From contig OZ004581.1 in assembly GCA_963924555.1 (NCBI GenBank), positions 8,843,338-8,907,337 of the forward strand: a stretch of 64,000 nt of DNA, written 5' to 3'. How positions within the stretch are numbered: the stretch's first letter is position 1; each line of letters starts with the position of its first letter. Source of the DNA: Crambe crambe. Taxonomy: Eukaryota > Porifera > Demospongiae > Poecilosclerida > Crambeidae. Position numbers and translations under genes: made by a program. The notes below the pieces were generated by a model that was given only the letters and a program-made list of their open reading frames with translations, had not been told where the DNA came from and did no database searches. Of this stretch, positions 5,266 through 55,348 are shown piece after piece.

Positions 5266-5415
5266 CTTCTAATAATATATATATAAGACAGAGCATTACA
5301 ATCTCTATTGTATTATAGTTGAATATGAACTTACTCGCTGCAAGAAAATGTAAGCATCAAATTATCATATTGGGACAGGATAAGAGAATAGATTACTTAC
5401 TGGCTAAATGGAAAA

Positions 5416-5446
<31 letters not shown>

Positions 5447-8400
5447 CAACAGACAGCATGTAAATAATACTGAGAGTGAGTCAAAAAATAACTTACCAAC
5501 TGAAAGGATAAAAATACGATAGAGAAGGTATGACAGGGTAAGAGAATAGACAGCATGAAAGTAACAGTGCAGAGAGTGAGTCAGTGTATAACGTACCGAC
5601 TGAAGGAATAAAAAACAGATAGCAAGTAAGCATCAATGAGCGAGTCAGTTCAAAATAACTTACATCCTGAAAGTATACATCAGTGCAGACATGACAAGAT
5701 CAAAGAATAAACAACATGTCAATAACAGTAAAGAAAGTTAGACAGTTCAATACTAACCAACTGAAGGACATCAAATACCAATAAAGGTTAGAGGTTAGAG
5801 ATCAGACAGCATGTAAGTATCAATGCAGAGAGTGAGTCAGTTCAGAATAACTTACCGACTGAAGGAATGAAATTAAGCATCAAAATACGACAGTGAAGAG
5901 ATGACAGGGTAAGAGACAAAATGTAAGTAATGATGCAGGGAGTGAGTTCAGAATAACTTACAAACTGAAGAAAAACAACCATGAAGGTACAACAGGGTAA
6001 GAGAATAGACAGCATGTAAGTAACAGTGAATCATCATCAAACTTACTGACTGAAGGAATGTATAACAAGGTAAAATAATGAATGCTGAGTGATTTGTTTG
6101 GAATAACTTACTGACTGAAGGATTAAATTAAGTATCAAAATACGACAGTACATAATGAAAGAATAGAAAATATGTAAGTAACAATGCAAAAACTTATAAA
6201 CTTATTTGCTGAAGGAATAAAATTAAGCATCAAAATAATTATGACAGTGAAAAGTAGACAGGGCAAGAATATATAAGTAACTACATAGGGAGTGCAGATG
6301 AACTTACTTGCTAATTAAATACATGAATAGGACATTGAAGGTGTGACGGCAAGATAGAGAAAGAGAATATACAGCATTTAAGTAATAATGCAGAGAGCAG
6401 TCTGTTCATGATAACTTACTAACTAAAAAAAATAAAATTATTAAGCATCAAGCATTGAGTAAGTCTGTTTAAAATAACTTACTAGCTAATTCATCCAAAC
6501 ATGACAGTGAAGGCACAATACAGTAAGAGAATAGACAGCATATAAGTAATAAAGCCGAGAGAGAGTAACTTACCGACTGAAGGAGTGAAATTAAGCATCA
6601 AAATACACAGTGAAGGTACGACAGGGTAAGAGAATAGACAGCATGTAAGTAACCATGCAGAGAGTGAGTCAGTTCAGAATAACTTACCCACTGAAGGAGT
6701 GAAATTAAGCATCAAAATACGAAAGTGAAGGAACGACAGGGTAAAAGAATAGACAGCTTGTAAATAACAATGCAGAGAGTGAGTCTGTTCAGAATGACTT
6801 ACATGCTGAAGGAGTGAAATTAAGCATCAAAATATGAAAGTGAAGGAACGACAGGGAAAGAGAATAGACAGCATGTAAGTAACAATGCAGAGAGTGAGTC
6901 AGTTCAGAATGACTTACTCGCTGAAGGAATGAAATTAAGCATCAAAATACAACAGTGAAGGTACGGCAGGGTAAGAGAATAGACAGCATGTAAGTAACAA
7001 TGCAGAGAGTGAGTATGTACAGAATAACTTACTTTCTGAAGGAATAAAATTAAGTATCGAAATACGACAGTGAAGGTACGACAGGGTAAGAGAATAGACA
7101 GCATGTAAGTAACAATGCAGAGTGAGTCAGTTCAGAATAACTTACTTGCTGAAGGAATGAAATTAAGCATCAAAATACGACAGTGAAGGTATGACAGGGT
7201 AAGAGAATAAACAGCATGTAAGTAACAATGCAGAGAGTGAGTTAGTTAAGAATAACTTACAGACTGAAGGAATGAAATTAAGCAACAGTGAAGTTATGAC
7301 AGGGTAAGAGAATAGACAGCATGTAAGTAACAATGCAGAGAGTGAGTATGTTCAGGACAACTTACATCCTGAAAGAATGAAATTAAGCATCAAAATATGA
7401 CAGTGAAGGTATGACAGGGCAAGAGAATAGACAGCATGTAAGTAACAATGCAGAGAGTGAGTTAGTTAAGAATAACTTACAGACTGAAGGAGTGAAATTA
7501 AGCAACAGTGAAGTTATGACAGGGTAAGAGAATAGACAGCATGTAAGTAACAATGCAGAGAGTGAGTATGTTCAGGACAACTTACATCCTGAAAGAATGA
7601 AATTAAGCATCAAAATATGACAGTGAAGGTATGACAGGGCAAGAGAATAGACAGCATGTAAGTAACAATGCAGAGAGTGAGTTAGTTAAGAATAACTTAC
7701 AGACTGAAGGAGTGAAATTAAGCAACAGTGAAGTTATGACAGGGTAAGAGAATAGACAGCATGTAAGTAACAATGCAGAGAGTGAGTATGTTCAGGACAA
7801 CTTACATCCTGAAAGAATAAAATTAAGCATCAAAATATAACAGTGAAGGTATGACAGGGCAAGAGAATAGACAGCATGTAAGTAACAATGCAGAGAGTGA
7901 GTTAGTTAAGAATAACTTACCAACTGAAGGAGTGAAATTAAGCACCAAAATACAACAGTGAAGGTACGGCAGGGTAAGAGAATAGACAGCATGTAAGTAA
8001 CAATGCAGAGAGTGAGTACATTCAGAATAACTTACCATCTGAAGGAATGAAATTAAGCATCAAAATACAACAGTGAAGGTACAACAGGGTAAGAGAATAT
8101 AGACAGCATGTAAGTAACAATGCAGAGAGTGAATACGTTCAGAATAACTTACCTCCTGAAAGAATGAAATTAAACATCAAAATACGACAGTGAAGGTGTG
8201 ACAGGATAAGAGAATAGACAACATGTAAGTAACAATGCAGAGAGTGAGTCAGTTCAGAATAACTTACATACTGAAGGAATGAAATTAAGCATCAAATACG
8301 ACAGTGAAGGTACGACAGGGTAAGAGTATAGACAGCATGTAAGTAACAATGCAGAGAGTGAGTACGTTCAGAATAACTTACTCGCTGAAGGAATGAAATT

Positions 8401-11400
8401 AAGCATCAAAATACGACGACAGTAAGAAAATAGACAGCATGAAAGTAACAATGCAGAGAGTGAATCAGTTCAGAATAACTTACCGGCTGAAGGAATGAAA
8501 TTAAGCATCAAAATACGACAGTGAAGGTAAGACAGGGTAAGAGAATAGACAGCATGTAAGTAACAATGCAGAGAGTGAGTACGTTCAGAATAACTTACCG
8601 CCTGAAGGAATGAAATTAAGCATCAAAATACGACGACAGGGTAAGAGAATAGACAGCATGTAAGTAACAATGCAGAGAGTGAGTCAGCTCAGAGTAACTT
8701 ACCACCTGAAGGAATGAAATTAAGCATCAAAATACGACAGTGAAGATACGACAGGGTAAGAGAATAGACAGCATGTAAGTAACAATGCAGAGAGTGAGTA
8801 CGTTCAGAATAACTTACATACTGAAGGAATGAAATTAAGCATCAAAATACGACAGTGAAAGAGAATAGACAGCATGTAAGTAACAATGCAGAGAGTGAGT
8901 TAGTTAAGAATAACTTACAGACTGAAGGAGTGAAATTAAGCACCAAAGTACGACAGTGAAGTTATGACAGGGTAAGAGAATAGACAGCATGTAAGTAACA
9001 ATGCAGAGAGTGAGTATGTTCAGGACAACTTACATCCTGAAAGAATGAAATTAAGCATGAAAATATGACAGTGAAGGTATGACAGGGCAAGAGAATAGAC
9101 AGCATGTAAGTAACAATGCAGAGAGTGAGTTAGTTAAGAATAACTTACCGACTGAAGGAGTGAAATTAAGCACCAAAATACGACAGTGAAGTTACGACAG
9201 GGTAAGAGAATAGACAGCATGTAAGTAACAATGCAAAGAGTGAGTATGTTCAGAATAACTTACCCGCTGAAGGAATGAAATTAAGCATCAAAATACGACA
9301 GTGAAAGAGAATAGACAGCATGTAAGTAACAATGCAGAGAGTGAGTTAGTTAAGAATAACTTACAGACTGAAGGAGTGAAATTAAGCACCAAAATACGAC
9401 AGTGAAGTTACGACAGGGTAAGAGAATAGACAGCATGTAAGTAACAATGCAAAGAGTGAGTCTGTTCAAAATAACTTACCCGCTGAAGGAATGAAATTAA
9501 GTATCAAAATACGACAGTGAAGGTACGGCAGGGTAAGAGAATAGACAGCTTGCAAGTAACAATGCAGAGAGTGAGTCAGTTCAGGATAACTTACATACTA
9601 AAGGAATGAAATTAAGCATCAAAATACGACAGTGAAGTTACGACAGGGTAAGAGAATAGACAGCATGTAAGTAACAATGCAGAGAGTGAGTATGTTCAGA
9701 ATAACTTACCGACTGAAGGAATGAAATTAAGCATCAAATACGACAGTGAAAGAGAATAGACAGCATGTAAGTAACAATGCAGAGAGTGAGTACATTCAGA
9801 ATAACTTACATACTGAAGGAATGAAATTAAGCATCAAAATACGACAGTGAAGGTAAGACAGGGTAAGAGAATAGACAGCATGTAAGTAACAATGCAGAGA
9901 GTGAGTACATTCAGAATAACTTACATACTGAAGGAATGAAATTAAGCATCAAAATACGACAGTGAAGTTACGACAGGGTAAGAGAATAGACAGCATGTAA
10001 GTAACAATGCAGAGAGTGAGTATGTTCAGAATAACTTACCGACTGAAGGAATGAAATTAAGCATCAAATACGACAGTGAAAGAGAATAGACAGCATGTAA
10101 GTAACAATGCAGAGAGTGAGTACATTCAGAATAACTTACATACTGAAGGAATGAAATTAAGCATCAAAATACGACAGTGAAGGTGTGACAGGATAAGAGA
10201 ATAGACAACATGTAAGTAACAATGCAGAGAGTGAGTCAGTTCGGAATAAACTTACATACTGAAGGAATGAAATTAAGCATCAAATACGACAGTGAAGGTA
10301 CGACAGGGTAAGAGTATAGACAGCATGTAAGTAACAATGCAGAGAGTGAGTACGTTCAGAATAACTTACTCGCTAAAGGAATGAAATTAAGCATCAAAAT
10401 ACGACGACAGTAAGAAAATAGACAGCATGTAAGTAACAATGCAGAGAGTGAATTAGTTCAGAATAACTAACCGGCTGAAGGAATGAAATTAAGCATCAAA
10501 ATACGACAGTGAAGGTAAGACAGGGTAAGAGAATAGACAGCATGTAAGTAACAATGCAGAGAGTGAGTACGTTCAGAATAACTTACCTCCTGAAGGAATG
10601 AAATTAAGCATCAAAATACGACGACAGGGTAAGAGAATAGACAGCATGTAATTAACAATGCAGAGAGTGAGTCAGCTCAGAGTAACTTACCACCTGAAGG
10701 AATGAAATTAAGCATCAAAATACGACAGTGAAGATACGACAGGGTAAGAGAATAGACAGCATGTAAGTAACAATGCAGAGAGTGAGTACGTTCAGAATAA
10801 CTTACCTCCTGAAGGAATGAAATTAAGCATCAAAATACGACGACAGGGTAAGAGAATAGACAGCATGTAAGTAACAATGCAGAGAGTGAGTCAGCTCAGA
10901 GTAACTTACCACCTGAAGGAATGAAATTAAGCATCAAAATACGACAGTGAAGGTATGACAGGGTAAGAGAATAGACAGCATGTAAGTAACAATGCGGAGA
11001 GTGAGTATAACCTACCAACTGAAGGAATGAAATTAAGCATCAAAATACGACAGTGAAGGTAAGACAGGGTAAGAGAATAGACAGCATGTAAGTAATGTAG
11101 AGAGTGAGTACGTTCAGAATAACTTACCTCCTGAAGGAATGAAATTAAGCATCAAAATACAACAGTGAAGGTACAACAGGGTAAGAGAACAGACAGCATG
11201 TAAGTAACAAAATGCAGAGAGTGAGTTTATTCAGAATAACTTACCCGCTGAAGGAATAAATTAAGCATCAGTGACAGTATGACAGGGTAAGAGAAAAGAC
11301 AGCATGTGAGTAACAATGTAGAGTGTGAGTTGGTTCAGAATAACTTACATGCTGAAGCATCAAAATACAACAATGAAGGTACGACAGGGTAAGAGAATAG

Positions 11401-11642
11401 ACAGCATGTAAGTAATAGTGCTGAAAGTTGTCAAGAATAACTCACATCCTGAAGGATCTAAATATGTCAATGAAGGTATGACAGGGTAAGATAATGAGAA
11501 GTGATAAAACAATATGTTAATGAAGTATAAGTAATGACTTACCAGGAGAAGGGGTAATAAGTTCCAACATCAAATTGAGTGTGTATGGTGTGAAAGAACA
11601 TGATGCCAAATATAATAATGTCAGTCTTGAATGACTCACCTC
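5266..11642 (-). repeat. Array A: tandem intron/3-nt micro-exon units (about 55-60)
   Basis: Tandem units of about 65-115 bp. On the minus strand each begins GTAAGTTATTC, runs through TGATGCTTAATTTC (branch-like TTAAT) and a pyrimidine tract to CTTCAG, then has three variable bases before the next GTAAGT. Slots include GAG (11640-11642), ATG near 8036, CAT near 6804, TGG near 6691, TTG (5497-5499), CCA (5401-5403), CGA (5335-5337) and AAG (5266-5268). The 5.3-6.5 kb end has strongly diverged intron sequence, with 63-66-nt introns at the very end, yet keeps AG-NNN-GT. Exceptions seen: one donor mutated to ATAAGT near 6205, and one unit near 11540 lacking the AG. The array lies between the MSDKK first exon and the ROCO exons. 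Splicing is inferred, not demonstrated. Confidence 0.85.
5419..5446. repeat. Poly-A/(TA)n microsatellite
   Basis: A run of A followed by alternating TA. Read on the minus strand, the A-run gives the long T tract immediately upstream of a CATTTAG acceptor and CCA micro-exon slot at 5401-5403. Confidence 0.8.
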
Positions 11643-11645
11643 CTG

Positions 11646-11980
11646 AAAGAAAACATTGATACACATAATTCAGCACTTCTAATCAATAAATATTCCAGAC
11701 ACAATCTTGAAACTTCCTTCCTTTTTTGGTAAAGGGTTGACAAGTGAGAATTGGCCCCACCCGGTACCCATACACATGGGCCACATAGGCACACTGCAGT
11801 ACAGCACAAGCTGCACTTCAAGTGAGGAAGGAATGAGCTTCCAAGTCATTACCAGTGATGGATTGCATTGGTACACCCTCTATAATCAACACTCCCCAAC
11901 TAAATGAGCTGGTGTCACACCCTAGTCCCTAGCCCAAAGTCCCTAGTCCCTAGCTACCTTATTCATGTGAATGCACTCAC
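11646..11980 (-). other. First intron, locus A (possible extra exon inside)
   Basis: Lies between the GTGAGT donor of the first exon and the CTTTCAG acceptor before a GAG micro-exon slot. It contains an open minus-strand frame (about 11679-11876, VYQCNPSLVMTWK...) preceded by a TTATAG acceptor-like site. The same region is present at 55376-55576, but there a 7-base deletion shifts the frame in its second half, which argues against a long conserved exon. I leave it as intron with a possible short exon. Confidence 0.4.
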
Positions 11981-12055
11981 AAAATATGGTTCAGCTCTGC
12001 TAGAAGTAGCCTTCTTCTCTGTCTCTTCATTCTCTTCACCTTTTTTATCACTCAT
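11981..12055 (-). CDS. First coding exon MSDKKGEENEE (locus A)
   Basis: Twenty-five codons from ATG to a TTTT|GTGAGTGC donor, leaving in phase 0. The peptide is MSDKKGEENEETEKKATSS followed by RAEPYF: short, highly charged, Glu/Lys-rich, with no signal peptide. An almost identical exon heads locus C (55674-55748; one Thr-to-Ala change), and a decayed copy lies at 16597-16675. The position immediately 5' of each micro-exon array, with the same downstream intron, indicates a common leader exon for this gene family. I do not recognise the peptide. Confidence 0.65.
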
Positions 12056-15407: not shown

Positions 15408-15416
15408 ATGCGTGTA

Positions 15417-19731: not shown

Positions 19732-19817
19732 CTGAGATGGAAAACATAATCATAATATCTACAATCAGTGACAGGTCAGAGAATAGACATAATACATTAT
19801 CATTACTAGTTCACTAC

Positions 19818-20234: not shown

Positions 20235-20249
20235 CTGGAAAAAATTACA

Positions 20250-21284: not shown

Positions 21285-21586
21285 CTACATGTAAATCTTA
21301 GCTTCTATCGACTTTGCGAGTTGGTTGAGTTTGCATTCTTCCAGTACAGAAATAAGAGTTTCCCAGGACACAGGGTTTTTCCCCCCTCCTTGTAGCCATT
21401 CTTGTAAGATTTGAATATTGATTTCTTCTGCATTTTTCATTTTTTCTTGTTCTATGGCTTTAATGCGTGCACCAGTCTTATCATTAAGGAGACATATTCC
21501 AAATTTTCTATACTTGTCCCCCAACTCTTCAACCAACTCATATTGGATAATTTCAGGCATGGATGGGGAGCTGCGAAGTCCTGGTC
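21285..21586 (-). CDS. Terminal Death-domain exon of the ZU5 gene (locus C)
   Basis: Starts after TCCACAG (21587-21589), is entered in phase 1 (matching the exon at 21963-22161), and ends at a stop at 21285. It encodes PGLRSSPSMPEIIQYELVEE, then LGDKYRKFGICLLNDKTGARI, a Trp-containing QEWLQGGG segment and SWETLISVLEECKLNQLAKSI. The pattern is a Death-type fold. A ZU5-UPA-Death order is known from UNC5, PIDD and ankyrin, and expanded relatives are common in sponges (family knowledge). Confidence 0.72.
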
Positions 21587-23780: not shown

Positions 23781-23783
23781 CTG

Positions 23784-37600: not shown

Positions 37601-40600
37601 TTACTCGCTGAAGGAATGAAATTAAGCATCAAAATACGACGACAGGGTGAGAGAATAGACAGCATGTAAGTAACAATGCAGAGAGTGAGTACGTTCAGAA
37701 TAATTTACCTTCTGAAGGAATGAAATTAAGCATCAAAATACAACAGTAAAGGTACGGCAGGGTAAGAGAATAGACAGCATGTAAGTAACAATGCAGAGAG
37801 TGAGTACATTCAGAATAACTTACCTCCTGAATGAATGAAATTGAGAATCAAAATACGACGACAGGGTAAGAGAATAGACAGCATGTAAGTAACAATGCAG
37901 AGAGTGAGTATAACTTACCAACTGAAGGAATGAAATTAAGCATCAAAAAACGACAGTGAAGGTACGGCAGGGTAAGAGAATAGACAGCATGTAAGTAACA
38001 ATGCAGAGAGTGAGTACGTTCAGAATAATTACCTCCTGAAGGAATGAAATTAAGCATCAAAATACGACAGTGAAGGTAAGACAGGGTAAGAGAATAGACA
38101 GTATGTAAGTAACAATGCAGAGAGTGAGTCAGTTAAGAATAACTTACTTGCTGAAGGAATGAAATTAAGCATCAAAATACGACGACAGGGTAAGAGAATA
38201 GACAGCATGTAAGTAACTATGCAGAGAGTGAGTACGTTCAGAATAACTTACCAACTGAAGGAATGAAATTAAGCATCAAAATACGACAGTGAAGGTACGG
38301 CAGGGTAAGAGAATAGACAGCATGTAAGTAACAATGCAGAGAGTGAGTCAGCTTAGAATAACTTACCTCCTGAAGGAATGAAATTAAGCATCAAAATACA
38401 ACAGTAGAGGTACGGCAGGGTAAGAGAATAGACAGCATGTAAGTAACAATGCAGAGAGAGAGTACGTTCAGAATAACTTACCTCCTGAAGGAATGAAATT
38501 AAGCATCAAAATACAACAGTAAAGGTACGGCAGGGTAAGAGGATAGACAGCATGTAAGTAACAATGCAGAGAGTGAGTACGTTCAGAATAACTTACCTCC
38601 TGAAGGAATGAAATTGAGAATCACAATATGACGACAGGGTAAGAGAATAGACAGCATGTAATTAACGATGCAGAGAGTGAGAAACTTACCGACTGAACAA
38701 ATGAAATCAAGCATCAAAATACGACAGTGAAGGTACGGCAGGGTAAGAGAATAGACAGCATGTAAGTAACAATGCAGAGAATGAGTACATTCAGGATAAC
38801 TCACCTCCTGAAGGAATGAAATTAAGCATCAAAATACGACGACAGGGTAAGAGAATAGACAGCATGTAAGTAACAATGCAGAGAGTGAGTCAGTTCAGAA
38901 TAACTTACATACTGAAGGAATGAAATTAAGAATCAAATACGACAGTGAAGGTACAACAGGGTAAGAGAATAGACAGTATGTAAGTAACCATGCAGAAAGT
39001 GAGTATGCTTAGAATAACTTACCTCCTGAAGGAATAAAATTAAAGCATCGAATATGACAGTGACGGTACAACAGGGTAAGAAAATAGACAGCATATAAGT
39101 AACAAAGGCAGTTCAGAATAACTTACCTCCTGAAGGAATGAAATTAAGCATCAAAATACGACAGTGAAGGTATAACAGGGTAAGAGAATAGAGAGCATGT
39201 AAGTAACCATGCAGAGAGTGAGTCAGTTCAGAATAACTTACAAACTGAAGGAATCATCAAAATACGACAGTGAAGGTACGACAGGATAAGAGAATAGACA
39301 GCATGTAAGTAACCATGCAGAGAGTGAGTACATTCAGATTAACTTACCAACTGAAGGAATGAAATTAAGCATCAATATACGACAGTGAAGGTACGACAGG
39401 GTAAGAGAATAGACAGCATGTAAGTAACAATGCAGAGAGTGAGTACATTCAGAATAACTTACTTTCTAAAAGAAAAAATTAAGCATCAAAATACGACAGT
39501 GAAGGTACGACAGGGTAAGAGAATAGACAGCATGTAAGTAACAATGTAGAGAGTGAGTACATTCAGAATAACTTACTTTCTGAAAGAAAAAAATTAAGCA
39601 TTGAAATACGACAGCAAAGGTACGACAGAGTGAGTACATTCAGAATAACTTACTTTCTGAAAGAAAAAATTAAGCATCGAAATACGACAGTGAAGGTACG
39701 ACAGGGTAAGAGAAGAGACAGCATGTAAGTAACAGTGCAGAGAGTGAGTCTGTACAAAATAACTTACCAACTGAAGGAATGAAATTAAGCATCAAAATAA
39801 GACAGTGAAGATACGACAGGTAAGAGAATAGACAGCATGTAAGTAATAATGCAGAGAGTGAGTACGTTCAGAATAACTTACCAACTGAAGGAATGAAATT
39901 AAGCATCAAAATACGACGACAGGGTAAGAATAGACAGCATGTAAGTAACAATGCAGAGAGTGAGTCTGTACAGAATAACTTACTTTCTGAAGGAATAAAA
40001 TTAAGCATCGAAATACGACAGTAAAGGTACGACAGGGTAAGAGAATAGACAGCATGTAAGTAACAATGCAGAGAGTGAGTACATTCAGAATAACTTACTT
40101 TCTAAAAGAAAAAATTAAGCAAGAAAATACGACAGTGAAGGTACGACAGGGTAAGAGAATAGACAGCATGTAAGTAACAATGCAGAGAGTGAGTACATTC
40201 AGAATAACTTACTTTCTGAAAGAAAAAATTAAGCATTGAAATACGACAGCAAAGGTACGACAGAGTGAGTACATTCAGAATAACTTACTTTCTGTAAGAA
40301 AAAATTAAGCATCGAAATATGACAGTGAAGGTACGACAGGGTAAGAGAAGAGACAGCATGTAAGTAACAATGAAGAGAGTGAGTCTGTACAAAATAACTT
40401 ACCAACTGAAGGAATAAAATTAAGCATCAAAATAAGACAGTGAAGATACGACAGGTAAGAGAATAGACAGCATGTAAGTAATAATGCAGAGAGAGAGTCA
40501 GTTCAGGATAACTTACCGGCTAAAGGAATGAAATTAAGCATCAAAATACGACAGTGAAGGTACGACAGGGTAAGAGAATAGACAGCATGTAAGTAATAAT

Positions 40601-43600
40601 GCAGAGAGTGAGTCAGTTTAGGATAACTAACCGGCTAAAGGAATGAAATTAAGCATCAAAATATAACAGTGAAGATATGACAATGAAAGAGAATAGACAG
40701 CATGTAATTAACGATGCAGAGAGTGAGAAACCTACCGACTGAACAAATGAAATTAAGCATCAAAATACGACAGTGAAGGTACGGTAGGGTAAGAGAATAG
40801 ACAGCATGTAAATAACAATGCAGAGAGTGAGTACGTTGAGAATAACTTACCAACTGAAGGAATGAAATTAAGCATCAAAATACGACGACAGAGTAAGAGA
40901 ATAGACAGCATGTAAGTAACAATGCAGAGAGTGAGTACGTTCAGAATAACTTACGAACTGAAGGAATGAAATTAAGCATCAAAATACGACAGTGAAGGTA
41001 AGACAGGGTAAGAGAATAGACAGCATGTAAGTAACAATGTAGAGAGTGAGTCAGTTCAGAATAACTTACTCGCTGAAGGAATGAAATTAAGCATCAAAAA
41101 ACGACGACAGGGTAAGAGAATAGACAGCATGTAAGTAACAATGCAGAGAGTGAGTCAGTACAGAATAATTTACCAACTGAAGGAATGAAATTAAGCATCA
41201 AAATACGACAGTGAAGGTACGGCAGGGTAAGAGAATGGACAGCATGTAAGTAACAATGCAGAGAGTGAGCCAGTTTAGAATAACTTACCTCCTGAAGGAA
41301 TGAAATTAAGCATCAAAATACAACAGTAAAGGTACGGCAGGGTAAGAAAATAGACAGCATGTAAGTAACAATGCAGAGAGTGAGTACGTTCAGAATAACT
41401 CACCTCCTGAAGGAATGAAATTAAGCATCAAAATACGACGACAGGGTAAGAGAATAGACAGCATGTAAGTAACAATGCAGAGAGTGAGTACGTTCAGAAT
41501 AACTTACCTCCTGAAGGAATGAAATTGAGATTCAAAATACGACGACAGGGTAAGAAAATAGACAGCATGTAAGTAACAATGCAGAGAGTGAGTACGTTCA
41601 GAATAACTCACCTCCTGAAGGAATGAAATTAAGCATCAAAATACGACGACAGGGTAAGAGAATAGACAGCATGTAAGTAACAATGCAGAGAGAGAGTACG
41701 TTCAGAATAACTTACCTCCTGAAGGAATGAAATTAAGCATCAAAATACAACAGTAAAGGTACGGCAGGGTAAGAGAATAGACAGCATGTAAGTAACAATG
41801 CAGAGAGTGAGTACGTTCAGAATAACTTACCTCCTGAAGGAATGAAATTGAGAATCACAATATGACGACAGGGTAAGAGAATAGACAGCATGTAATTAAC
41901 GATGCAGAGAGTGAGAAACTTACCGACTGAACAAATGAAATCAAGCATCAAAATACGACAGTGAAGGTACGGCAGGGTAAGAGAATAGACAGCATGTAAG
42001 TAACAATGCAGAGAATGAGTACATTCAGGATAACTCACCTCCTGAAGGAATGAAATTAAGCATCAAAATACGACGACAGGGTAAGAGAATAGACAGCATG
42101 TAAGTAACAATGCAGAGAGTGAGTCAGTTCAGAATAACTTACATACTGAAGGAATGAAATTAAGAATCAAATACGACAGTGAAGGTACAACAGGGTAAGA
42201 GAATAGACAGTATGTAAGTAACCATGCAGAAAGTGAGTATGCTTAGAATAACTTACCTCCTGAAGGAATAAAATTAAAGCATCGAATATGACAGTGACGG
42301 TACAACAGGGTAAGAAAATAGACAGCATATAAGTAACAAAGGCAGTTCAGAATAACTTACCTCCTGAAGGAATGAAATTAAGCATCAAAATACGACAGTG
42401 AAGGTATAACAGGGTAAGAGAATAGAGAGCATGTAAGTAACCATGCAGAGAGTGAGTCAGTTCAGAATAACTTACAAACTGAAGGAATCATCAAAATACG
42501 ACAGTGAAGGTACGACAGGATAAGAGAATAGACAGCATGTAAGTAATAATGCAGAGAGAGAGTCAGTTCAGATTAACTTACCAACTGAAGGAATGAAATT
42601 AAGCATCAAAATACGACAGTGAAGGTACAACAGAGTAAGAGAATAGAAAGCATGTAAGTAACCATGCAGAGAGTGAGTACGTTCAGATTAACTTACCAAC
42701 TGAAGGAATGAAATTAAGCATCAAAATACGACAGTGAAGGTACAACAGAGTAAGAGAATAGAAAGCATGTAAGTAACAATGCAGAGAGTGAGTCAGTTCA
42801 GGATAACTTACCGGCTAAAGGAATGAAATTAAGCATCAAAATATAACAGTAAAGATGTGACAGGGTAAGAGAATAGACAGCATGTAAGTAACAATGCAGA
42901 GAGTGAGTACGTTCAGAATAATTTACCTTCTGAAGGAATGAAATTAAGCATCAAGATACAACAGTAAAGGTACGGCAGGGTAAGAGAATAGACAGCATGT
43001 AAGTAACAATGCAGAGAGTGGGTACGTTCAGAATAATTTACCTTCTGAAGGAATGAAATTAAGCATCAAAATACAACAGTAAAGGTACGGCAGGGTAAGA
43101 GAATAGACAGCATGTAAGTAACAATGCAGAGAGTGAGTCTGTACAGAATAACTTACTTTCTGAAGGAATAAAATTAAGCATCGAAATACGACAGTGAAGG
43201 TACGACAGGGTAAGAGAATAGACAGCATGTAAGTAACAATGCAGAGAGTGAGTACATTCAGAATAACTTACTTTCTAAAAGAAAAAATTAAGCATCAAAA
43301 TACGACAGTGAAGGTACGACAGGGTAAGAGAATAGACAGCATGTAAGTAACAATGCAGAGAGTGAGTACATTCAGAATAACTTACTTTCTGAAAGAAAAA
43401 AATTAAGCATTGAAATACGACAGCAAAGGTACGACAGAGTGAGTACATTCAGAATAACTTACTTTCTGAAAGAAAAAATTAAGCATCGAAATACGACAGT
43501 GAAGGTACGACAGGGTAAGAGAAGAGACAGCATGTAAGTAACAGTGCAGAGAGTGAGTCTGTACAAAATAACTTACCAACTGAAGGAATGAAATTAAGCA

Positions 43601-46600
43601 TCAAAATAAGACAGTGAAGATACGACAGGTAAGAGAATAGACAGCATGTAAGTAACAATGCAGAGAGTGAGTACGTTCAGAATAACTTACCAACTGAAGG
43701 AATGAAATTAAGCATCAAAATACGACGACAGGGTAAGAGAATAGACAGCATGTAAGTAACAATGCAGAGAGTGAGTCAGTTCAGAATAACTTACATACTG
43801 AAGGAATGAAATTAAGAATCAAATACGACAGTGAAGGTACAACAGGGTAAGAGAATAGACAGTATGTAAGTAACCATGCAGAAAGTGAGTATGCTTAGAA
43901 TAACTTACCTCCTGAAGGAATAAAATTAAAGCATCGAATATGACAGTGACGGTACAACAGGGTAAGAAAATAGACAGCATATAAGTAACAAAGGCAGTTC
44001 AGAATAACTTACCTCCTGAAGGAATGAAATTAAGCATCAAAATACGACAGTGAAGGTATAACAGGGTAAGAGAATAGAGAGCATGTAAGTAACCATGCAG
44101 AGAGTGAGTCAGTTCAGAATAACTTACAAACTGAAGGAATCATCAAAATACGACAGTGAAGGTACGACAGGATAAGAGAATAGACAGCATGTAAGTAACC
44201 ATGCAGAGAGTGAGTACGTTCAGATTAACTTACCAACTGAAGGAATGAAATTAAGCATCAAAATACGACAGTGAAGGTACAACAGAGTAAGAGAATAGAA
44301 AGCATGTAAGTAACAATGCAGAGAGTGAGTCAGTTCAGGATAACTTACCGGCTAAAGGAATGAAATTAAGCATCAAAATATAACAGTAAAGATGTGACAG
44401 GGTAAGAGAATAGACAGCATGTAAGTAACAATGCAGAGAGTGAGTACGTTCAGAATAATTTACCTTCTGAAGGAATGAAATTAAGCATCAAGATACAACA
44501 GTAAAGGTACGGCAGGGTAAGAGAATAGACAGCATGTAAGTAACAATGCAGAGAGTGGGTACGTTCAGAATAATTTACCTTCTGAAGGAATGAAATTAAG
44601 CATCAAAATACAACAGTAAAGGTACGGCAGGGTAAGAGAATAGACAGCATGTAAGTAACAATGCAGAGAGTGAGTCTGTACAGAATAACTTACTTTCTGA
44701 AGGAATAAAATTAAGCATCGAAATACGACAGTGAAGGTACGACAGGGTAAGAGAATAGACAGCATGTAAGTAACAATGCAGAGAGTGAGTACATTCAGAA
44801 TAACTTACTTTCTAAAAGAAAAAATTAAGCATCAAAATACGACAGTGAAGGTACGACAGGGTAAGAGAATAGACAGCATGTAAGTAACAATGCAGAGAGT
44901 GAGTACATTCAGAATAACTTACTTTCTGAAAGAAAAAAATTAAGCATTGAAATACGACAGCAAAGGTACGACAGAGTGAGTACATTCAGAATAACTTACT
45001 TTCTGAAAGAAAAAATTAAGCATCGAAATACGACAGTGAAGGTACGACAGGGTAAGAGAAGAGACAGCATGTAAGTAACAGTGCAGAGAGTGAGTCTGTA
45101 CAAAATAACTTACCAACTGAAGGAATGAAATTAAGCATCAAAATAAGACAGTTAAGATACGACAGGTAAGAGAATAGACAGCATGTAAGTAACAATGCAG
45201 AGAGTGAGTACGTTCAGAATAACTTACCAACTGAAGGAATGAAATTAAGAATCAAAATACGACAGTAAAGGTAAGAGAATGGACAGCATGCAAGTAACAA
45301 TGCAGAAAGTGAGTCAGTTAAGAATAACTTACTCGCTAAAGGAATGAAATTAAGCATCAAAATACGATGACAGTGAAAGAGAATAGACAGCATGTAAGTA
45401 ACAATGCAGAAAGTAAGTCAGTTCAGAATAACTTACTCTCTGAAGGAATGAAATTAAGCATCAAAATACGACGACAGTAATACAACGACAGTGAAAGAGA
45501 ATAGACAGCATGTAAGTAACAATGCAGAGAGTGAGTCAGTTCAGGATAACTTACCAGCTAAAGGAATGAAATTAAGCATCGAAATACGACAGTGAAGGTA
45601 CGACAGGGTTAGAGAATAGACAGCATGTAAGTAATAATGCAGAGAGTGAGTCAGTTTAGGATAACTTACCGGCTAAAGGAATGAAATTAAGCATCAAAAT
45701 ATAACAGTGAAGATACGACAGTGAAAGAGAATAGACAGCATGTAAGTAACAATGCAGAGAGTGAGTCTGTACAGAATAACTTACCTTCTGAAAGAATAAA
45801 ATTAAGCATCGAAATACGACAATGAAGGTACGACAGGGTAAGAGAATAGACAGCATGTAATTAACGATGCAGAGAGTGAGAAACTTACCGACTGAACAAA
45901 TGAAATCAAGCATCAAAGTGAAGGTACGGCAGGGTAAGAGAATAGACAGCATGTAAGTAACAATGCAGAGAGTTAGTACGTTCAGGATAACTCACCTCCT
46001 GAAAGAATGAAATTAAGCATCAAAATACGACGACAGAGTAAGAGAATAGACAGCATGTAAGTAACAATGAAGAGAGTGAGTCTGTTCAGAATAACTTACT
46101 CGCTGAAGGAATGAAATTAAGCATCAAAATACGACGACAGGGTAGAGAATAGACAGCATGTAAGTAACAATGCAGAGAGTGAGTACGTTTAGAATAACTT
46201 ACCTCCTGAAGGAATGAAATTGAGAATCAAAATACGACGACAGGGTAAGAGAATGGACAGCATGTAAGTAACAATGCAGAGAGTGAGTATAACTTACCAA
46301 CTGAAAAAATGAAATTAAGCATCAAAATACGACGACAGGGTAAGAGAATAGACAGCATGTAAGTAACAATGCAGAGAGTGAGTACGTTCCGAATAATTTA
46401 CCTCCTGAAGGAATGAAATTAAGCATCAAAATACGACGACAGAGTAAGAGAATAGACAGCATGTAAGCAACAATGCAGAGAGTGAGTACGTTCTGAATAA
46501 CTTACCTCCTGAAGGAATGAAATTAAGCATCAAAATACAACAGTAAAGGTACAGCAGGGTAAGAGAATAGACAGCATGTAAGTAACAATGCAGAGAGTGA

Positions 46601-49600
46601 GTACGTTCATAATAACTTACGAACTGAAGGAATGAAATTAAGCATCAAAATACGACAGTGAAGGTAAGACAGGGTAAGAGAATAGAAAGCATGTAAGTAA
46701 CAATGTAGAGAGTGAGTCAGTTCAGAATGACTTACTCGCTGAAGGAATGAAATTAAGCATCAAAATATGACGACAGGGTAAGAGAATAGACAGCATGTAA
46801 GTAACAATGCAGAGAGTAAGTACGTTCAGAATAACTTACATCCTGAAGGAATGAAATTAAGCATCAAGATATGACGACAGAGTAAGAGAATAGACAGCAT
46901 GTAAGTAACAATGCAGAGAGTGAGTACGTTCAGAATAACTTACCAACTGAAGGAATGAAATTAAGCATCAAAATACGACAGTGAAGGTACGGCAGGGTAA
47001 GAGAATAGACAGCATGTAAGTAACAATGCAGAGAGTGAGTACATTCAGAATAACTCACCTCCTGAGGGAATGAAATTAAGCATCAAAATACGACGACAGG
47101 GTAAGAGTATAGACAGCATGTAAGTAACAATGCAGAGAGTGAGTACGTTCAGAATAACTCACCTCCTGAAGGAATGAAATTAAGCATCAAAATACGACGA
47201 CAGGGTAAGAATAGACAGCATGTAAGTAACAATGCAGAGAGTGAGTCAGTTCAGAATAACTTACCTCCTGAAGGAATGAAATTAAGCATCAAAATACAAC
47301 AGTAAAGGTATGGCAAGGTAAGAGAATAGACAGCATGTAAGTAACAATGCAGAGAGTGAGTACGTTCAGAATAACTCACCTCCTGAGGGAATGAAATTAA
47401 GCATCAAAATACGACGACAGGGTAAGAGAATAGACAGCATGTAAGTAACAATGCAGAGAGTGAATATAACTTACCAACTGAAGGAATGAAATTAAGCATC
47501 AAAATACGATGACAGAGTAAGAGAATAGACAGCATTTAAGCAACAATGCAGAGAGTGAGTACGTTCATAATAACTTACGAACTGAAGGAATGAAATTAAG
47601 TATCAAAATACGACAGTGAAGGTAAGACAGGGTAAGAGAATAGAAAGCATGTAAGTAACAATGTAGAGAGTGAGTCAGTTCAGAATGACTTACTCGCTGA
47701 AGGAATGAAATTAAGCATCAAAATATGACGACAGAGTAAGAGAATAGACAGCATGTAAGTAACAATGCAGAGAGTGAGTACGTTCAGAATAACTTACCTC
47801 CTGAAGGAATGAAATTAAGCATCAAAATATGACGACAGAGTAAGAGAATAGACAGCATGTAAGTAACAATGCAGAGAGTGAGTACGTTCAGAATAACTTA
47901 CCTCCTGAAGGAATGAAATTAAGCATCAAAATATGACGACAGAGTAAGAGAATAGACAGCATGTAAGTAACAATGCAGAGAGTGAGTACGTTCAGGATAA
48001 CTCACCTCCTGAAGGAATGAAATTAAGCATCAAAATACGACGACAGGGTAAGAATAGACAGCATGTAAGTAACAATGCAGAGAGTGAGTCTGTACAGAAT
48101 AACTTACTTTCTGAAGGAATAAAATTAAGCATCGAAATACGACAGTAAAGGTACGACAGGGTAAGAGAATAGACAGCATGTAAGTAACAATGCAGAGAGT
48201 GAGTACATTCAGAATAACTTACTTTCTAAAAGAAAAAATTAAGCAAGAAAATACGACAGTGAAGGTACGACAGGGTAAGAGAATAGGCAGCATGTAAGTA
48301 ACAATGCAGAGAGTGAGTACATTCAGAATAACTTACTTTCTGAAAGAAAAAATTAAGCATTGAAATACGACAGCAAAGGTACGACAGAGTGAGTACATTC
48401 AGAATAACTTACTTTCTGTAAGAAAAAATTAAGCATCGAAATATGACAGTGAAGGTACGACAGGGTAAGAGAAGAGACAGCATGTAAGTAACAATGAAGA
48501 GAGTGAGTCTGTACAAAATAACTTACCAACTGAAGGAATAAAATTAAGCATCAAAATAAGACAGTGAAGATACGACAGGTAAGAGAATAGACAGCATGTA
48601 AGTAATAATGCAGAGAGAGAGTCAGTTCAGGATAACTTACCGGCTAAAGGAATGAAATTAAGCATCAAAATATAACAGTGAAGACAGTGAAAGAGAATAG
48701 ACAGCATGTAAGTAACAATGCAGAGAGTGAGTCAGTTCAGGATAACTTACCGGCTAAAGGAATGAAATTAAGCATCAAAATACGACAGTGAAGGTACGAC
48801 AGGGTAAGAGAATAGACAGCATGTAAGTAATAATGCAGAGAGTGAGTCAGTTTAGGATAACTAACCGGCTAAAGGAATGAAATTAAGCATCAAAATATAA
48901 CAGTGAAGATATGACAATGAAAGAGAATAGACAGCATGTAATTAACGATGCAGAGAGTGAGAAACCTACCGACTGAACAAATGAAATTAAGCATCAAAAT
49001 ACGACAGTGAAGGTACGGTAGGGTAAGAGAATAGACAGCATGTAAGTAACAATGCAGAGAGTGAGTACGTTCAGAATAACTTACCAACTGAAGGAATGAA
49101 ATTAAGCATCAAAATACGACGACAGAGTAAGAGAATAGACAGCATGTAAGTAACAATGCAGAGAGTGAGTACGTTCAGAATAACTTACGAACTGAAGGAA
49201 TGAAATTAAGCATCAAAATACGACAGTGAAGGTAAGACAGGGTAAGAGAATAGACAGCATGTAAGTAACGATGTAGAGAGTGAGTCAGTTCAGAATAACT
49301 TACTCGCTGAAGGAATGAAATTAAGCATCAAAAAACGACGACAGGGTAAGAGAATAGACAGCATGTAAGTAACAATGCAGAGAGTGAGTCAGTACAGAAT
49401 AATTTACCAACTGAAGGAATGAAATTAAGCATCAAAATACGACAGTGAAGGTACGGCAGGGTAAGAGAATGGACAGCATGTAAGTAACAATGCAGAGAGT
49501 GAGCCAGTTTAGAATAACTTACCTCCTGAAGGAATGAAATTAAGCATCAAAATACAACAGTAAAGGTACGGCAGGGTAAGAAAATAGACAGCATGTAAGT

Positions 49601-52600
49601 AACAATGCAGAGAGTGAGTACGTTCAGAATAACTCACCTCCTGAAGGAATGAAATTAAGCATCAAAATACGACGACAGGGTAAGAGAATAGACAGCATGT
49701 AAGTAACAATGCAGAGAGTGAGTACGTTCAGAATAACTTACCTCCTGAAGGAATGAAATTGAGATTCAAAATACGACGACAGGGTAAGAGAATAGACAGC
49801 ATGTAAGTAACAATGCAGAGAGTGAGTACGTTCAGAATAACTCACCTCCCGAAGGAATGAAATTAAGCATCAAAATACGACGACAGGGTAAGAGAATAGA
49901 CAGCATGTAAGTAACAATGCAGAGAGTGAGTACGTTCAGAATAACTTACCTCCTGAAGGAATGAAATCAAGCATCAAAATACAACAGTAAAGGTACGGCA
50001 GGGTAAGAAAATAGACAGCATGTAAGTAACAATGCAGAGAGTGAGTACGTTCAGAATAACTCACCTCCTGAAGGAATGAAATTAAGCATCAAAATACGAC
50101 GACAGGGTAAGAGAATAGACAGCATGTAAGTAACAATGCAGAGAGTGAGTACGTTCAGAATAACTTACCTCCTGAAGGAATGAAATTGAGATTCAAAATA
50201 CGACGACAGGGTAAGAGAATAGACAGCATGTAATTAACGATACAGAGAGTGAGAAACATACCGACTGAACAAATGAAATCAAGCATCAAAATACGACAGT
50301 GAAGGTACGGCAGGGTAAGAGAATAGACAGCATGTAAGTAACAATGCAGAGAGTGAGTACGTTCTGGATAACTCACATCCTGAAGGAATGAAATTAAGCA
50401 TCAAAATACGACGACAGGGTAAGAGAATAGACAGCATGTAAGTAACAATGCAGAGAGTTAGAATAACTTACCTCCTGAAGGAATGAAATTGAGAATCAAA
50501 ATACGATGACAGGGTAAGAGAATAGACAGCATGTAAGTAGCAATGCAGAGAGTGAGTATAACTCACCTCCTGAAGGAATGAAATTAAGCATCAAAATACG
50601 ACGACAGAGTAAGAGAATAGACAGCATGTAAGCAACAATGCAGAGAGTGAGTGCGTTCAGAATAACTTACCAACTGAAGGAATGAAATTAAGCATCAAAA
50701 TACGACAGTGAAGGTAAGACAGGGTAAGAGAATAGACAGCATGTAAGTAACAATGTAGAGAGTGAGTCAGTTCAGAATAACTTACTCGCTGAAGGAATGA
50801 AATTAAGCATCAAAATACGACGACAGGGTAAGAGAATAGACAGCATGTAAGCAACAATGCAGAGAGTGAGTGCGTTCAGAATAACTTACCTCCTGAAGGA
50901 ATGAAATTGAGAATCAAAATACAACAATAAAGGTACGGCAGGGTAAGAGAATAGACAGCATGTAAGTAACAATGCAGAAAGTGAGTACGTTCAGAATAAC
51001 TTACCTCCTGAAGGAATGAAATTGAGAATCAAAATACGACGACAGGGTAAGAGAATAGACAGCATGTAAGTAACAATGCAGAAAGTGAGTACGTTCAGGA
51101 TAACTCACCTCCTGAAGGAATGAAATTAAGCATCACGACAGGGTAAGAGAATAGACAGCATGTAAGTAACAAGCAGAGAGTGAGTACGTTCAGAATAACT
51201 TACCTCCTGAAGGAATGAAATAAGCATCAAAATACGACGACAGAGTAAGAGAATAGACAGCATGTAAGTAACAATGCAGAGAGTGAGTACGTTCAGAATA
51301 ACTTACTCGCTGAAGGAATGAAATTAAGCATCAAAATACAATAGTGAAGGTACGGCAGGGTAAGAGAAAAGACAGCTTGTAAGTAACAATGCAGAGAGTG
51401 AGTCAGTTCAGGATAACTTACCTTCTAAAGGAATGAAATTAAGCATCAAAATACGACAGTGAAGGTAAGACAGGGTAAGAGAATAGACAGCATGTAAGTA
51501 ACAATGTAGAGAGTGAGTCAGTTCAGAATAACTTACTCGCTGAAGGAATGAAATTAAGCATCAAAATACAACAGTGAAAGTACAGCAGGGTAAGAGAATA
51601 GACAGCTTGTAAGTAACAATGCAGAGAGTGAGTCAGTTCAGGATAACTTACCTTCTAAAGGAATGAAATTAAGCATCAAAATACGATAGTGAAGGTAAGA
51701 CAGGGTAAGAGAATAGACAGTATGTAAGTAACAATGCAGAGAGTGAGTCAGTTCAGAATAACTTACTCGCTGAAGGAATGAAATTAAGCATCAAAATATA
51801 ACAGTGAAGGTAAGACAGGGTAAGAGAATAGACAGCATGTAAGTAACAATGCAGAGAGTGAGTCAGTTCAGAATAACTTACATACTGAAGGAATGAAATT
51901 AAGCATCAAATACGACAGTAAAGGTACGACAGGGTAAGAGTATAGACAGCATGTAAGTAACAATGCAAAGAGTAAGTTCTGAATAACTTACTTGCTGAAG
52001 GAATGAAATAAGGCATCGAAATACGACAGTGAAAGTACGACAGGGTAAGAGTATAGACAACCATGCAGAGAGTGAGTCAGTTCTGAATAACTTACTATCT
52101 GAAGGAATTAAATTAAGCATCAAAATACGACGACAGGGTGGGAGAATAGACAGCATGTAAGTAACAATGCAGAGAGTGAGTCAGTTCAGAATAACTTACT
52201 CGCTGAAGGAATGAAATTAAGCATCAAAATACGACGACAGGGTGGGAGAATAGACAGCATGTAAGTAACAATGCAGAGAGTGAGTACGTTCAGAATAACT
52301 TACCTCCTGAAGGAATGAAATTAAGCATCAAAATACAGCAGTAAAGGTACGGCAGGGTAAGAGAATAGACAGCATGTAAGTAACAATGCAGAGAGTGAGT
52401 ATAACTTACCAACTGAAGGAATGAAATTAAGCATCAAAATACGACAGTGAAGGTACGGCAGGGTAAGAGAATAGACAGCATGTAAGTAACAATGCAGAGA
52501 GTGAGTCAGTTCAGAATAACTTACTCGCTGAAGGAATGAAATTAAGCATCAAAATACGACGACAGGGTGGGAGAATAGACAGCATGTAAGTAACAATGCA

Positions 52601-55348
52601 GAGAGTGAGTACGTTCAGAATAACTTACCTCCTGAAGGAATGAAATTAAGCATCAAAATACAGCAGTAAAGGTACGGCAGGGTAAGAGAATAGACAGCAT
52701 GTAAGTAACAATGCAGAGAGTGAGTACATTAAGAATAACTTACCTCCTGAAGGAATGAAATTGAGAATCAAAATACGACGACAGGGTGAGAGAATAGACA
52801 GCATGTAAGTAACAATGCAGAGAGTGAGTATAACTTACCAACTGAAGGAATGAAATTAAGCATCAAAATACGACAGTGAAGGTACGGCAGGGTAAGAGAA
52901 TTGACAGCATGTAAGTAACAATACAGAGAGTGAGTACGTTCAGGATAACTCACCTCCTGAAGGAATGAAATTAAGCATCAAAATACGATGACAGGGTAAG
53001 AGAATAGACAGCATGTAAGTAACAATGCAGAGAGTGAGTACCTTCAGAATAACTTACCTCCTGAAGTAATGAAATCAAGCATCAAAATATGACGACAGAG
53101 TAAGAAAATAGAGAGCATGTAAGTAACAATGCAGAGAGTGAGTACGTTCAGAATAACTTACCAACTGAAGGAATGAAATTAAGCATCAAAATACGACAGT
53201 GAAGGTAAGACAGGGTAAGAGAATAGACAGCATGTAAGTAACAATGTAGAGAGTGAGTCAGTTCAGAATAACTTACTCGCTGAAGGAATGAAATTAAGCA
53301 TCAAAATACATCAGTGAAGGTATGGCAGGGTAAGAGAATAGACAGCTTGTAAGTAACAATGCAGAGAGTGAGTCAGTTCAGGATAACTTACCTTCTAAAG
53401 GAATGAAATTAAGCATCAAAATACGACAGTGAAGGTAAGACAGGGTAAGAGAATAGACAGTATGTAAGTAACAATGTAGAGAGTGAGTCAGTTCAGAATA
53501 ACTTACTCGCTGAAGGAATGAAATTAAGCATCAAAATATAACAGTGAAGGTAAGACAGGGTAAGAGAATAGACAGCATGTAAGTAACAATGCAGAGAGTG
53601 AGTCAGTTCAGAATAACTTACATACTGAAGGAATGAAATTAAGCATCAAATACGACAGTAAAGGTACGACAGGGTAAGAGTATAGACAGCATGTAAGTAA
53701 CAATGCATGGAGTGAGTATTTTCAGAATAACTTACTTTCTGAAGGAATAAAATTAAGCATCGAAATACGACAGTGAAGGTACAACAGGGTAAGAGAATAG
53801 ACAGCATGTAAGTAACCATGCAGAAAGTGAGTACGTTTAGAATAACTTACCTCCTGAAGGAATAAAATTAAAGCATCGAATATGACAGTGATGGTACAAC
53901 AGGGTAAGAGAATAGACAGTATGTAAGTAACAAAGTCAGTTCAGAATAACTTACCTCCTGAAGGAATGAAATTAAGCATCAAAATACGACAGTGAAGATA
54001 TAACAGTGTAAGAGAATAAAAAGCATGTAAGTAACCATGCAGAGAGTGAGTACGTTCAGAATAACTTACCGACTGAAGAGATCATCAAAATACGTCAGTG
54101 AAGGTACGAGAGAGTAAGAGAATAGACAGCATGTAAGTAACAATGTAAAGAGTGAGTCAGTTCAGAATAACTTACTGGCTGAAGGAATGAAATTAAGCAT
54201 CAAAATACGACAGTGACGGTACAACAGAGTAAGAGAATAGACAGCATGTAAGTAACCATGCAGAGAGTGAGTCAGTTCAGAATAACTTACTAACTGAAGG
54301 AATCATCAAAATACGACAGTGAAGGTACAACAGGGTAAGAGAATAGACAGCATGTAAGTAACCATGCAGAGAGTGAGTACGTTCAGAATAACTTACCAAC
54401 TGAAGGAATGAAATTAAAGCATCGAATACGACAGTGAAGGTACAATAGGGTAAGAGAATAGACAGCATGTAAGTAACCATGCAGAGAGTGAGTACGTTCA
54501 GAATAACTTACCAACTGAAGGAATGAAATTAAGCATCAAAATACGACAGTGAAGGTAAGACAGGGTAAGAGAATAGACAGCATGTAAGTAACAATGCAGA
54601 GAATGAATCAGTTCTGAATAACTTACTTGCTGTTGGAATGAAATTAAGCATTGAAGTACGACAGTGAAGGTACGACAGGATAAGAGAATAGACAGCATGT
54701 AAGTAACAATGCAGAGAGTGAGTATGTTCAGAATAACTTACCAACTGAAGGAATGAAATTAAGCATCAAAATACGATAATAAAAGTACGGCAGGATAAGA
54801 GAACAGATAGCATGTAAGTAACAAAATGCAGAGAGTGAGTTTATTTACCCGCTGAAGGAATAAATTAAGCATCAGTGACAGTATGACAGGGTAAGAGAAT
54901 AGACAGCATGTGAGTAACAATGTAGAGTGTGAGTTGGTTCAGAATAACTTACCGGCTGAAGGCATCAAAATACGACAGGGTAAGAGAATAGACAGCATGT
55001 AGGTAACAATGCAGAGAGTGAGTTTATTCAGAATAACTTACCAACTGAAGGAATGAAAGTAAGCATCAAAATATGACAGTGAAGGTACGACAGGGTAAGA
55101 GAATAGACAGCATGTAAGTAATAGTGCTGAAAGTTGTCAAGAATAACTCACATCCTGAAGGATCTAAATATGTCAATGAAGGTATGACAGGGTAAGATAA
55201 TGAGAAGTGATAAAACAATATGTTAATGAAGTATAAGTAATGACTTACCAGGAGAAGGGGTAATAAGTTCAAACATCAAATTGAGTGTGTATGGTGTGAA
55301 AGAACATGATGCCAAATATAATAATGTCAGTCTTGAATGACTCACCTC
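25629..55348 (-). repeat. Array B: giant intron/3-nt micro-exon array (roughly 270 units)
   Basis: About 29.7 kb of the same unit as array A, ending (5', minus strand) with a GAG slot at 55346-55348 after CTTTCAG and starting (3') with a TTG slot at 25629-25631. Two length forms alternate: about 115 bp with GTACCTTCACTGTC and about 103 bp lacking that 12-base segment. Slots seen include GAG, TTG, CGA, AAG, AAA, TCG, CCG, TTC, TAT, GAT, CAA, TTA, CCA, CGG, CTG, AGA and ATA. Higher-order duplications are embedded, such as a 2,397-bp tandem. The minus-strand frames of about 61-101 codons seen here (HSLHCYLHAVYSLTLPYLHC-type) are by-products of intron sequence repeated out of phase, not genes. 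The unit count is estimated from length. Confidence 0.9.
33604..38397. repeat. Higher-order tandem duplication, 2 x 2,397 bp, within array B
   Basis: Sequence from 33604 recurs at 36001 with a constant offset of 2,397 bp. Landmarks at 33938/36335, 34689/37086 and 35451/37848 keep the same spacing and slot values, with only rare base changes. The copies diverge after about 36000 and 38397. A related block occurs near 28.0-29.3 kb (offset 5,580 from 33.6-34.9 kb). Confidence 0.85.

Follow-up and report, generated by a model that had tools for sequence, protein, structure and literature searches.

Arrays of putative single-codon exons ahead of Roc-COR and ZU5-Death modules in the sponge Crambe crambe

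Our analysis of a 64,000-nucleotide (nt) stretch of the genome of the sponge Crambe crambe (the window; 8.84 to 8.91 Mb of contig OZ004581.1, here called C1, in a 143-Mb genome) identified two long tandem arrays on the minus strand, both built of units in which a splice acceptor is followed by exactly three bases and then by a splice donor. Each array is preceded by a leader exon and followed by exons for signalling domains, and we refer to the two predicted genes and their arrays as gene 1 and gene 2 and array 1 and array 2. The three-base slots are very probably translated exons of one codon each. Taking both parts jointly, we consider it likely that the slots belong to genes of the ROCO, Death, or ZU5 type and that they are joined by a general mechanism of stepwise splicing; with respect to the order of events, we lean moderately toward sequential splicing with mostly ordered inclusion of the codons. 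At the level of sequence, the in-frame triplets carry the marks of both coding and splicing constraint, and we infer that they are spliced and translated.

The arrays were delimited by pattern matching and a position-weight scan, as follows.

25629..55348, minus strand: array 2, about 267 to 270 putative single-codon exons, read-out EDLPRLQLLLPSEEKYRKRLEELEERLERIQ..., introns mostly about 90 to 115 nt

5266..11648, minus strand: array 1, 53 scan-called putative single-codon exons plus a few degenerate terminal units, read-out EDHRELVEVEPRYYSYYSYRSRSDSY...

On the minus strand of the window, CAG-NNN-GTAAGT with a gap of exactly three bases occurs 238 times, while gaps of 0, 1, 2, 4, 5, 6, and 7 bases give 0, 1, 0, 1, 0, 0, and 1 matches, respectively. 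The three off-length matches, two of them at one place, all lie outside both arrays. A relaxed acceptor-NNN-donor pattern gave 311 matches in the window, 308 of which are in the arrays (252 in array 2 and 56 in array 1), and none of these 308 slots holds a stop codon. The position-weight scan placed 320 slots in the window: array 2 (55348-25629) has 267 of them and array 1 (11642-5497) has 53, with further, more degenerate units extending array 1 to about position 5266. The reversed and reverse-complement controls of the scan had no match in any of the C1 stretches examined. The arrays are tandem repeats that contain higher-order repeats. The original prediction described a unit order with exactly three bases between the splice sites, which is borne out by the near-exclusive 3-nt gap of the strict matches, and its estimate of roughly 330 units was a fair one against 308 by relaxed pattern and 320 by scan. 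Its statement that every donor reads GTAAGT is mostly correct but too strict, as GTGAGT, GTAAAT, and GTAGGT donors also occur and the AG or GT is lost in 13 of 664 units in the C1 stretches.

The slots are consistently placed within a reading frame. All 20 leader loci examined are open from the ATG over 75 nt, and in 18 of the 20, GTGAGT follows the leader on a codon boundary. A more stringent leader pattern gave 19 matches, some of which are a single place present in overlapping loci. Downstream of array 1, only a 22-nt exon (5209-5188) keeps the Roc frame among the acceptors considered, and this route requires phase 0 from the array; the paralogue L037 uses the same route through a 22-nt exon into Roc and likewise needs phase 0. 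By reading, the post-array exon of locus L044 begins in phase 0 and continues in frame into Roc, and the short leader of locus L045 (MAEKRQG) stops in phase 0 ahead of its array.

Stop codons are nearly absent from the slots. In the C1 stretches, the position-weight scan found one (TGA) in 710 slots; among unique slot contexts there was one in 352, versus a mean of 51 and a minimum of 36 in 2,000 column shuffles. Genome-wide, CTTCAG-NNN-GTAAGT sites carry TAY 118 times, TAG never, and TAA or TGA five times (once in the array of locus L029 and four times elsewhere). Furthermore, codon use varies between clusters and departs from that of ordinary exons: glutamate is encoded by GAG 179 times and by GAA twice in the C1 slots, versus 20 GAG and 39 GAA in the Roc-COR exon, and 47 of 50 slots of L044 have T at the third position. 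The residue repertoires also differ, with array 2 being rich in E/L/R/K, array 1 in S/Y/D/R, L029 in W/C/P/Q, and L044 in A/G/Y.

The slots are variable, whereas their surroundings are uniform. Column entropy is 1.91, 1.86, and 1.39 bits at the three slot positions versus 0 to 0.77 at the six bases on either side. Among 387 unit pairs whose 74 flank bases differ by no more than 2%, we counted 0.36 difference per slot base, with 44 pairs differing at all three. The same contrast is seen between paralogues compared in register from the leader: between those at 8206986 and 9358901, there are 10 differences over 1,011 intron bases and 4 over 30 slot bases (P = 0.0005), and the introns adjoining their CCG/GGG change (P to G) have no mismatches. 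Another pair in register from the leader differs at 14 of 1013 intron bases versus 8 of 27 slot bases (P = 2e-8), and the six pairs compared besides the first gave P values from 1e-13 to 0.014; the pairs were picked for low intron divergence, the six from a total of 276, the P values treat bases as independent, and the last two of the six alignments have large gaps and are less secure. Codon differences between close units are almost all nonsynonymous (nonsynonymous/synonymous: 611/0 in L044, 2,725/16 in array 2, 77/4 in array 1, 145/0 in L037, 66/0 in L045, and 12/0 in L036). In L044, slot divergence at codon positions 1, 2, and 3 is 0.54, 0.70, and 0.09 (812 close pairs, flank divergence 2%). 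Two processes appear to be in play, namely, the copying of blocks of units and the replacement of codons, or selective retention of differing codons, over uniform introns. The divergence of the slots may come either from selection or from a mutational or conversion process targeted to the slots.

The introns and splice sites were analyzed across the window and the other loci. Between neighboring slots less than 140 bases apart (longer gaps also exist), introns are 62 to 126 nt long, with 112 nt in 136 and 101 nt in 56 of the 360 distinct introns. Their lengths are not tied to multiples of 3 (187, 97, and 76 by length modulo 3), and retention would introduce an in-frame stop in 187 of the 360. 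The intron consensus is near-identical between genes across more than 2 Mb of C1. When 664 units of the C1 stretches examined were located without using the AG and GT letters, both dinucleotides were intact in 651, the AG being lost in 10 and the GT in 3. Where the slot ends in G, weak donors are more frequent (odds ratio, 2.6; P = 0.005, with shared descent uncorrected), as would be expected if the codon formed the exonic part of the donor. Phase 0, stop avoidance, fixed slot length, slot-specific variability, and retained AG and GT together argue strongly for the prediction that the units are introns set apart by in-frame single-codon exons, lying between a common leader and the signalling domains.

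The introns of C1 also carry ACTTACATGCTG, which is complementary to the donor and is the complement of CAG-CAT-GTAAGT on the opposite strand. Because this element is constant in C1 introns, the plus strand of the window has 269 CAG-NNN-GTAAGT matches; by reading, we take these to be one constant intronic element, CAG-CAT-GTAAGT without a pyrimidine tract, and not a second exon array. RNA pairing of the docking/selector type was considered and rejected as a general mechanism, as ACTTACATGCTG is absent from the C11 intron consensus sequences (see below).

The arrays are not confined to the window. The exact form CTTCAG-NNN-GTAAGTTATTCTG occurs at 2,613 sites genome-wide, versus none for a reversed-pattern control and none genome-wide when the slot of this form holds 0 to 2 or 4 to 12 bases. 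Matches to the leader exon number 37 genome-wide (75 to 100% identical, some partial); every one lies on C1, 35 of them at 8.16 to 9.37 Mb and the others at 6.64 and 6.71 Mb. Two more array clusters adjoin COR-domain matches on contig C11, at 5.83 to 5.89 Mb and from 7.13 Mb upward (7.13 to 7.28 Mb). The C11-type unit pattern has 351 sites and, among the matches listed, all are on C11 and hold no stop codon by eye. Three intron families share a common architecture. In the one gene read per C11 cluster, each cluster was seen to have its own intron family and codon repertoire. In stretches of about 9.5 kb comprising a COR exon and about 9 kb upstream on C3 (L046) and C5 (L047), no unit of the searched form was found; C1 and C11 aside, the genome has many COR places, of which these are two, and arrays that are more distant or of a different form would escape this control. 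Related sequences elsewhere amounted to one match each in one IMG/VR contig and five contigs of GTDB genomes, which we attribute to chance, given an 18-letter pattern and 257 billion bases.

The remaining exons of the two genes are listed below.

55674..55748, minus strand: gene 2 leader exon MSDKKGEENEEAEKKATSSRAEPYF, ending in phase 0 before GTGAGT (direct reading)

25308..25525, minus strand: gene 2 post-array exons in frame, KVIEVHEKNKEIDHLKQ / EIECLKELEKE / KNEEIDHLKR, coiled-coil-like by eye (boundaries deduced from splice sites and frame)

23149..23859, minus strand: gene 2 ZU5-domain exon (Pfam PF00791, E = 2e-6)

21288..21593, minus strand: gene 2 Death-domain exon (Pfam PF00531, E = 6.8e-6)

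11981..12055, minus strand: gene 1 leader exon MSDKKGEENEETEKKATSSRAEPYF, phase 0

5188..5209, minus strand: gene 1 22-nt exon TTTCGAGCCTCAAGGACTGAAG, linking array 1 to the Roc exon (by frame; L037 alike)

2881..5135, minus strand: gene 1 Roc-COR GTPase exon (Pfam COR-A, E = 1.5e-15, and Roc, E = 1.9e-9, both above curated cut-offs)

267..629, minus strand: gene 1 Death-like exon, probable gene end (Pfam PF00531, E = 0.0053, under the curated cut-off)

By Pfam, gene 1 has a Roc GTPase followed by COR, the definition of a ROCO gene. Gene 2 runs from leader through array 2 and the coiled-coil-like exons to ZU5 and Death; no Roc-COR open reading frame (ORF) was seen within gene 2 from the array through the Death exon, and a ROCO-like tail lies further downstream. 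The genome holds at least 150 COR-A matches and at least 150 Death matches. Of 339 COR-A candidates, 150 matches were scored; C1 at 8.1 to 9.4 Mb accounts for 28 of them, and the two C11 stretches have 17 on their minus strand. Fourteen exon-level Wnt matches mark the genome as an animal one, and their low number, together with the abundance of ROCO and Death matches, is in keeping with a sponge.

Several further features were noted around these genes. Between genes 2 and 1, at 18252-20698 on the minus strand, there are a Death-like ORF that Pfam does not match and a ROCO-like tail fragment (IISSSELEVIAMEVQKCEKVKE..., with which the Roc-COR ORF of gene 1 also ends); the two are perhaps the remnant of another ROCO 3' end or exons that gene 2 skips. 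In locus L034 (C1:8785501-8795500), a leader heads an array of only some 16 codons, and the next leader follows without an intervening Roc ORF longer than 100 amino acids; this may be a broken gene copy. On the plus strand, an ORF at 63088-63567 weakly matches DUF6589 (E = 0.0012, under the curated cut-off) and is perhaps, as a guess, a mobile-element gene; beside it, ORFs at 61827-63122 have no Pfam matches. Short tandem repeats are present at 57778-57997 (27 bp, 8.1 copies, 100%) and 60370-60565 (32 bp, 6.2 copies, 95%).

Considering these data, we propose a model for the expression of the arrays. The 3' and 5' splice-site machinery should not both fit on a 3-nt exon at the same time, and splicing would therefore run stepwise from the leader. 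Every step would add one codon, which would become the exonic part of the next donor, and each unit would act like a recursive-splicing ratchet point that retains one codon. Inclusion would be mostly ordered, with the loss of single units being tolerated: since all units are 3 nt, a skipped or dead unit would cost one residue only, and the region could therefore be lengthened, shortened, or recoded unit by unit. The product would be an N-terminal peptide that precedes the Roc-COR or ZU5-Death module; its predicted length ranges from 16 to about 270 residues among the six arrays read to their end.

There are observations that do not sit easily with this model. In two of the 20 leader loci, L027 and L028 (position 1575), TGAGTG replaces GTGAGT after the leader, and the leader donor looks lost. 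The sole stop called in the C1 array slots examined, a TGA, lies at 1501-1515 of L029 (C1:8828822-8828836), within a W/C/P/Q-rich array. The final acceptor of array 2, AATAAG, is weak; the final units of the gene 1 array are degenerate; and, near 8794510, a leader is followed by a short array and then by the next leader, with no Roc ORF longer than 100 amino acids in between. A run of 267 exons would also demand very high efficiency at each splicing step. With respect to the peptides, Pfam over four array read-outs gave no match above cut-offs and no leucine-rich repeat (LRR), a heptad test of array 2 was weak (P from 0.016 to 0.11, three versions and two tests), and the heptad pattern was absent from the L036, L037, and gene 1 read-outs. 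Finally, recent copies keep their slots: the two closest paralogue pairs (0.1 to 0.2% intron divergence) show 0 of 30 slot differences each, very recent block copies within arrays differ by 0.033 per slot base at 0.6% intron divergence, and just 12 of 68 close pairs in L036 have a changed codon. Part of the contrast between slots and introns may therefore reflect homogenization of the introns and not repeated codon change.

Two readings of the peptides themselves were rejected. In L036, ISELPKEELSELLKS repeats look LRR-like by eye, but there was no Pfam LRR, and the best match was BACK (E = 0.014), under the cut-off. Array 2 looks leucine-heptad-like by eye, but a coiled coil as the general array product was discarded, given weak tests there and negative ones in the three other read-outs.

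An alternative to ordered inclusion is that variable inclusion of the single-codon exons is their main function, each gene yielding many in-frame peptides in a Dscam-like manner in one-residue steps. Because all units share one phase, any subset would stay in frame, and the splice sites are near-identical from unit to unit. Units with a lost site do exist (13 of 664, 10 without AG and 3 without GT), and brown algal ROCO genes are described as alternatively splicing tandem LRR exons (PMC11378527). However, uniformly strong sites would favor the joining of nearest neighbors, the read-outs contain repeated motifs (though block duplication alone would produce these), and no conserved docking element was found, ACTTACATGCTG being missing from the C11 intron consensus. 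We regard variable inclusion as main function as unlikely, even though near-complete ordered inclusion and combinatorial subsets would fit the sequence equally well.

Very improbable, in our view, is a noncoding satellite in a long intron with splice-like motifs, or a series of recursive points whose triplet leaves the mRNA. The arrays are indeed tandem and contain higher-order repeats, and they occupy the position expected of an intron that separates the leader from the signalling exons. This reading nevertheless fails to predict stop avoidance, a fixed 3-nt slot in 2,613 sites, near-exclusively nonsynonymous differences, phase 0 at both ends, and an architecture common to three intron families. 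Zero-nt sites of the exact searched form are absent from the genome. Hardly credible is an introner or transposon-like intron family repeatedly inserted between preexisting codons: consensus introns are near-identical between genes over more than 2 Mb of C1, but the matches listed all fall in the C1 and C11 cluster regions instead of being scattered through genes, head-to-tail units at every codon are not readily given by repeated insertion, and the Roc-COR portion of gene 1 is one long open exon.

If single-codon exons joined stepwise are indeed what the arrays hold, the spliceosome would build up coding sequence one codon at a time in hundreds of successive reactions, and thousands of tiny exons would be the normal encoding of a protein segment and not isolated curiosities. 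Exon-size limits, recursive splicing, and splicing fidelity would become testable in a single gene. Evolution could add, delete, and swap single-residue cassettes without a frameshift. We expect standard gene annotation to miss such arrays. The encoded segment would most likely serve in recognition or assembly, as a rapidly evolving part of immune-like receptors, and the genes would form a candidate sponge recognition system, as the arrays precede Roc-COR and Death domains in expanded clusters. This opens the way for a broader and more tentative hypothesis. In this scenario, which we consider possible although on balance doubtful, tens of animal genes encode a variable part of a receptor at one codon per exon, the codons are replaced in situ through diversifying selection or a process aimed at the slots, with the introns being kept uniform, and stepwise splicing includes possibly cell- or individual-specific subsets. 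Such genes would constitute a combinatorial, immune-like diversity system at single-residue resolution.

To our knowledge, long runs of one-codon exons are a gene structure without a counterpart elsewhere. Dscam-type tandem clusters and schistosome micro-exon genes similarly derive protein diversity from tandem small or similar exons, but those exons are larger than one codon; the Dscam clusters are mutually exclusive, and among the intron families here we found no shared docking element. In searches of 5.39 million open PubMed Central (PMC) papers, a set without bioRxiv preprints and most subscription papers, single 3-nt exons turned up, but no description of arrays of single-codon exons did.

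Introners are described as near-identical introns inserted as copies into many genes (PMC9860276); families of near-identical introns are found here as well, but in tandem and, among the matches listed, in ROCO cluster regions. In Drosophila recursive splicing, juxtaposed acceptors and donors are used stepwise in "0-nt" splicing (PMC8605326). The units of C. crambe resemble these ratchet points in their adjoining acceptor and donor and, as we propose, in stepwise use, but three bases are kept instead of none (no sites of the exact searched form with 0 to 2 nt versus 2,613 with 3 nt). Isolated micro-exons of 1 to 6 nt demonstrate that tiny exons can be spliced constitutively: Arabidopsis APC11 has a constitutively spliced single-nucleotide exon, and 3 nt was the smallest alternatively spliced exon then known (PMC4674806). 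Other papers in this field deal mostly with micro-exons of flies, bees, mouse, and plants. A micro-exon is a very short exon that has functional splice sites and is included in mRNA; by sequence, the array units show splice-site retention and codon-level constraint. While the isolated micro-exons are lone exons in ordinary genes, the units described here come in arrays of hundreds with highly variable content.

The closest parallel is the LRR-ROCO family of brown algae, in which each LRR is encoded by one 72-bp exon and the exons are reported to undergo shuffling, diversifying selection, and alternative splicing (PMC11378527). In both systems, a Roc-COR core follows an N-terminal region of tandem, phase-matched exons. 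The exon there is a 23-residue LRR, whereas here it would be one codon, with up to about 270 exons and no Pfam LRR in four read-outs. The logic of the two systems is similar, although the algal exon is 24 times as long and the unit is of a different kind.

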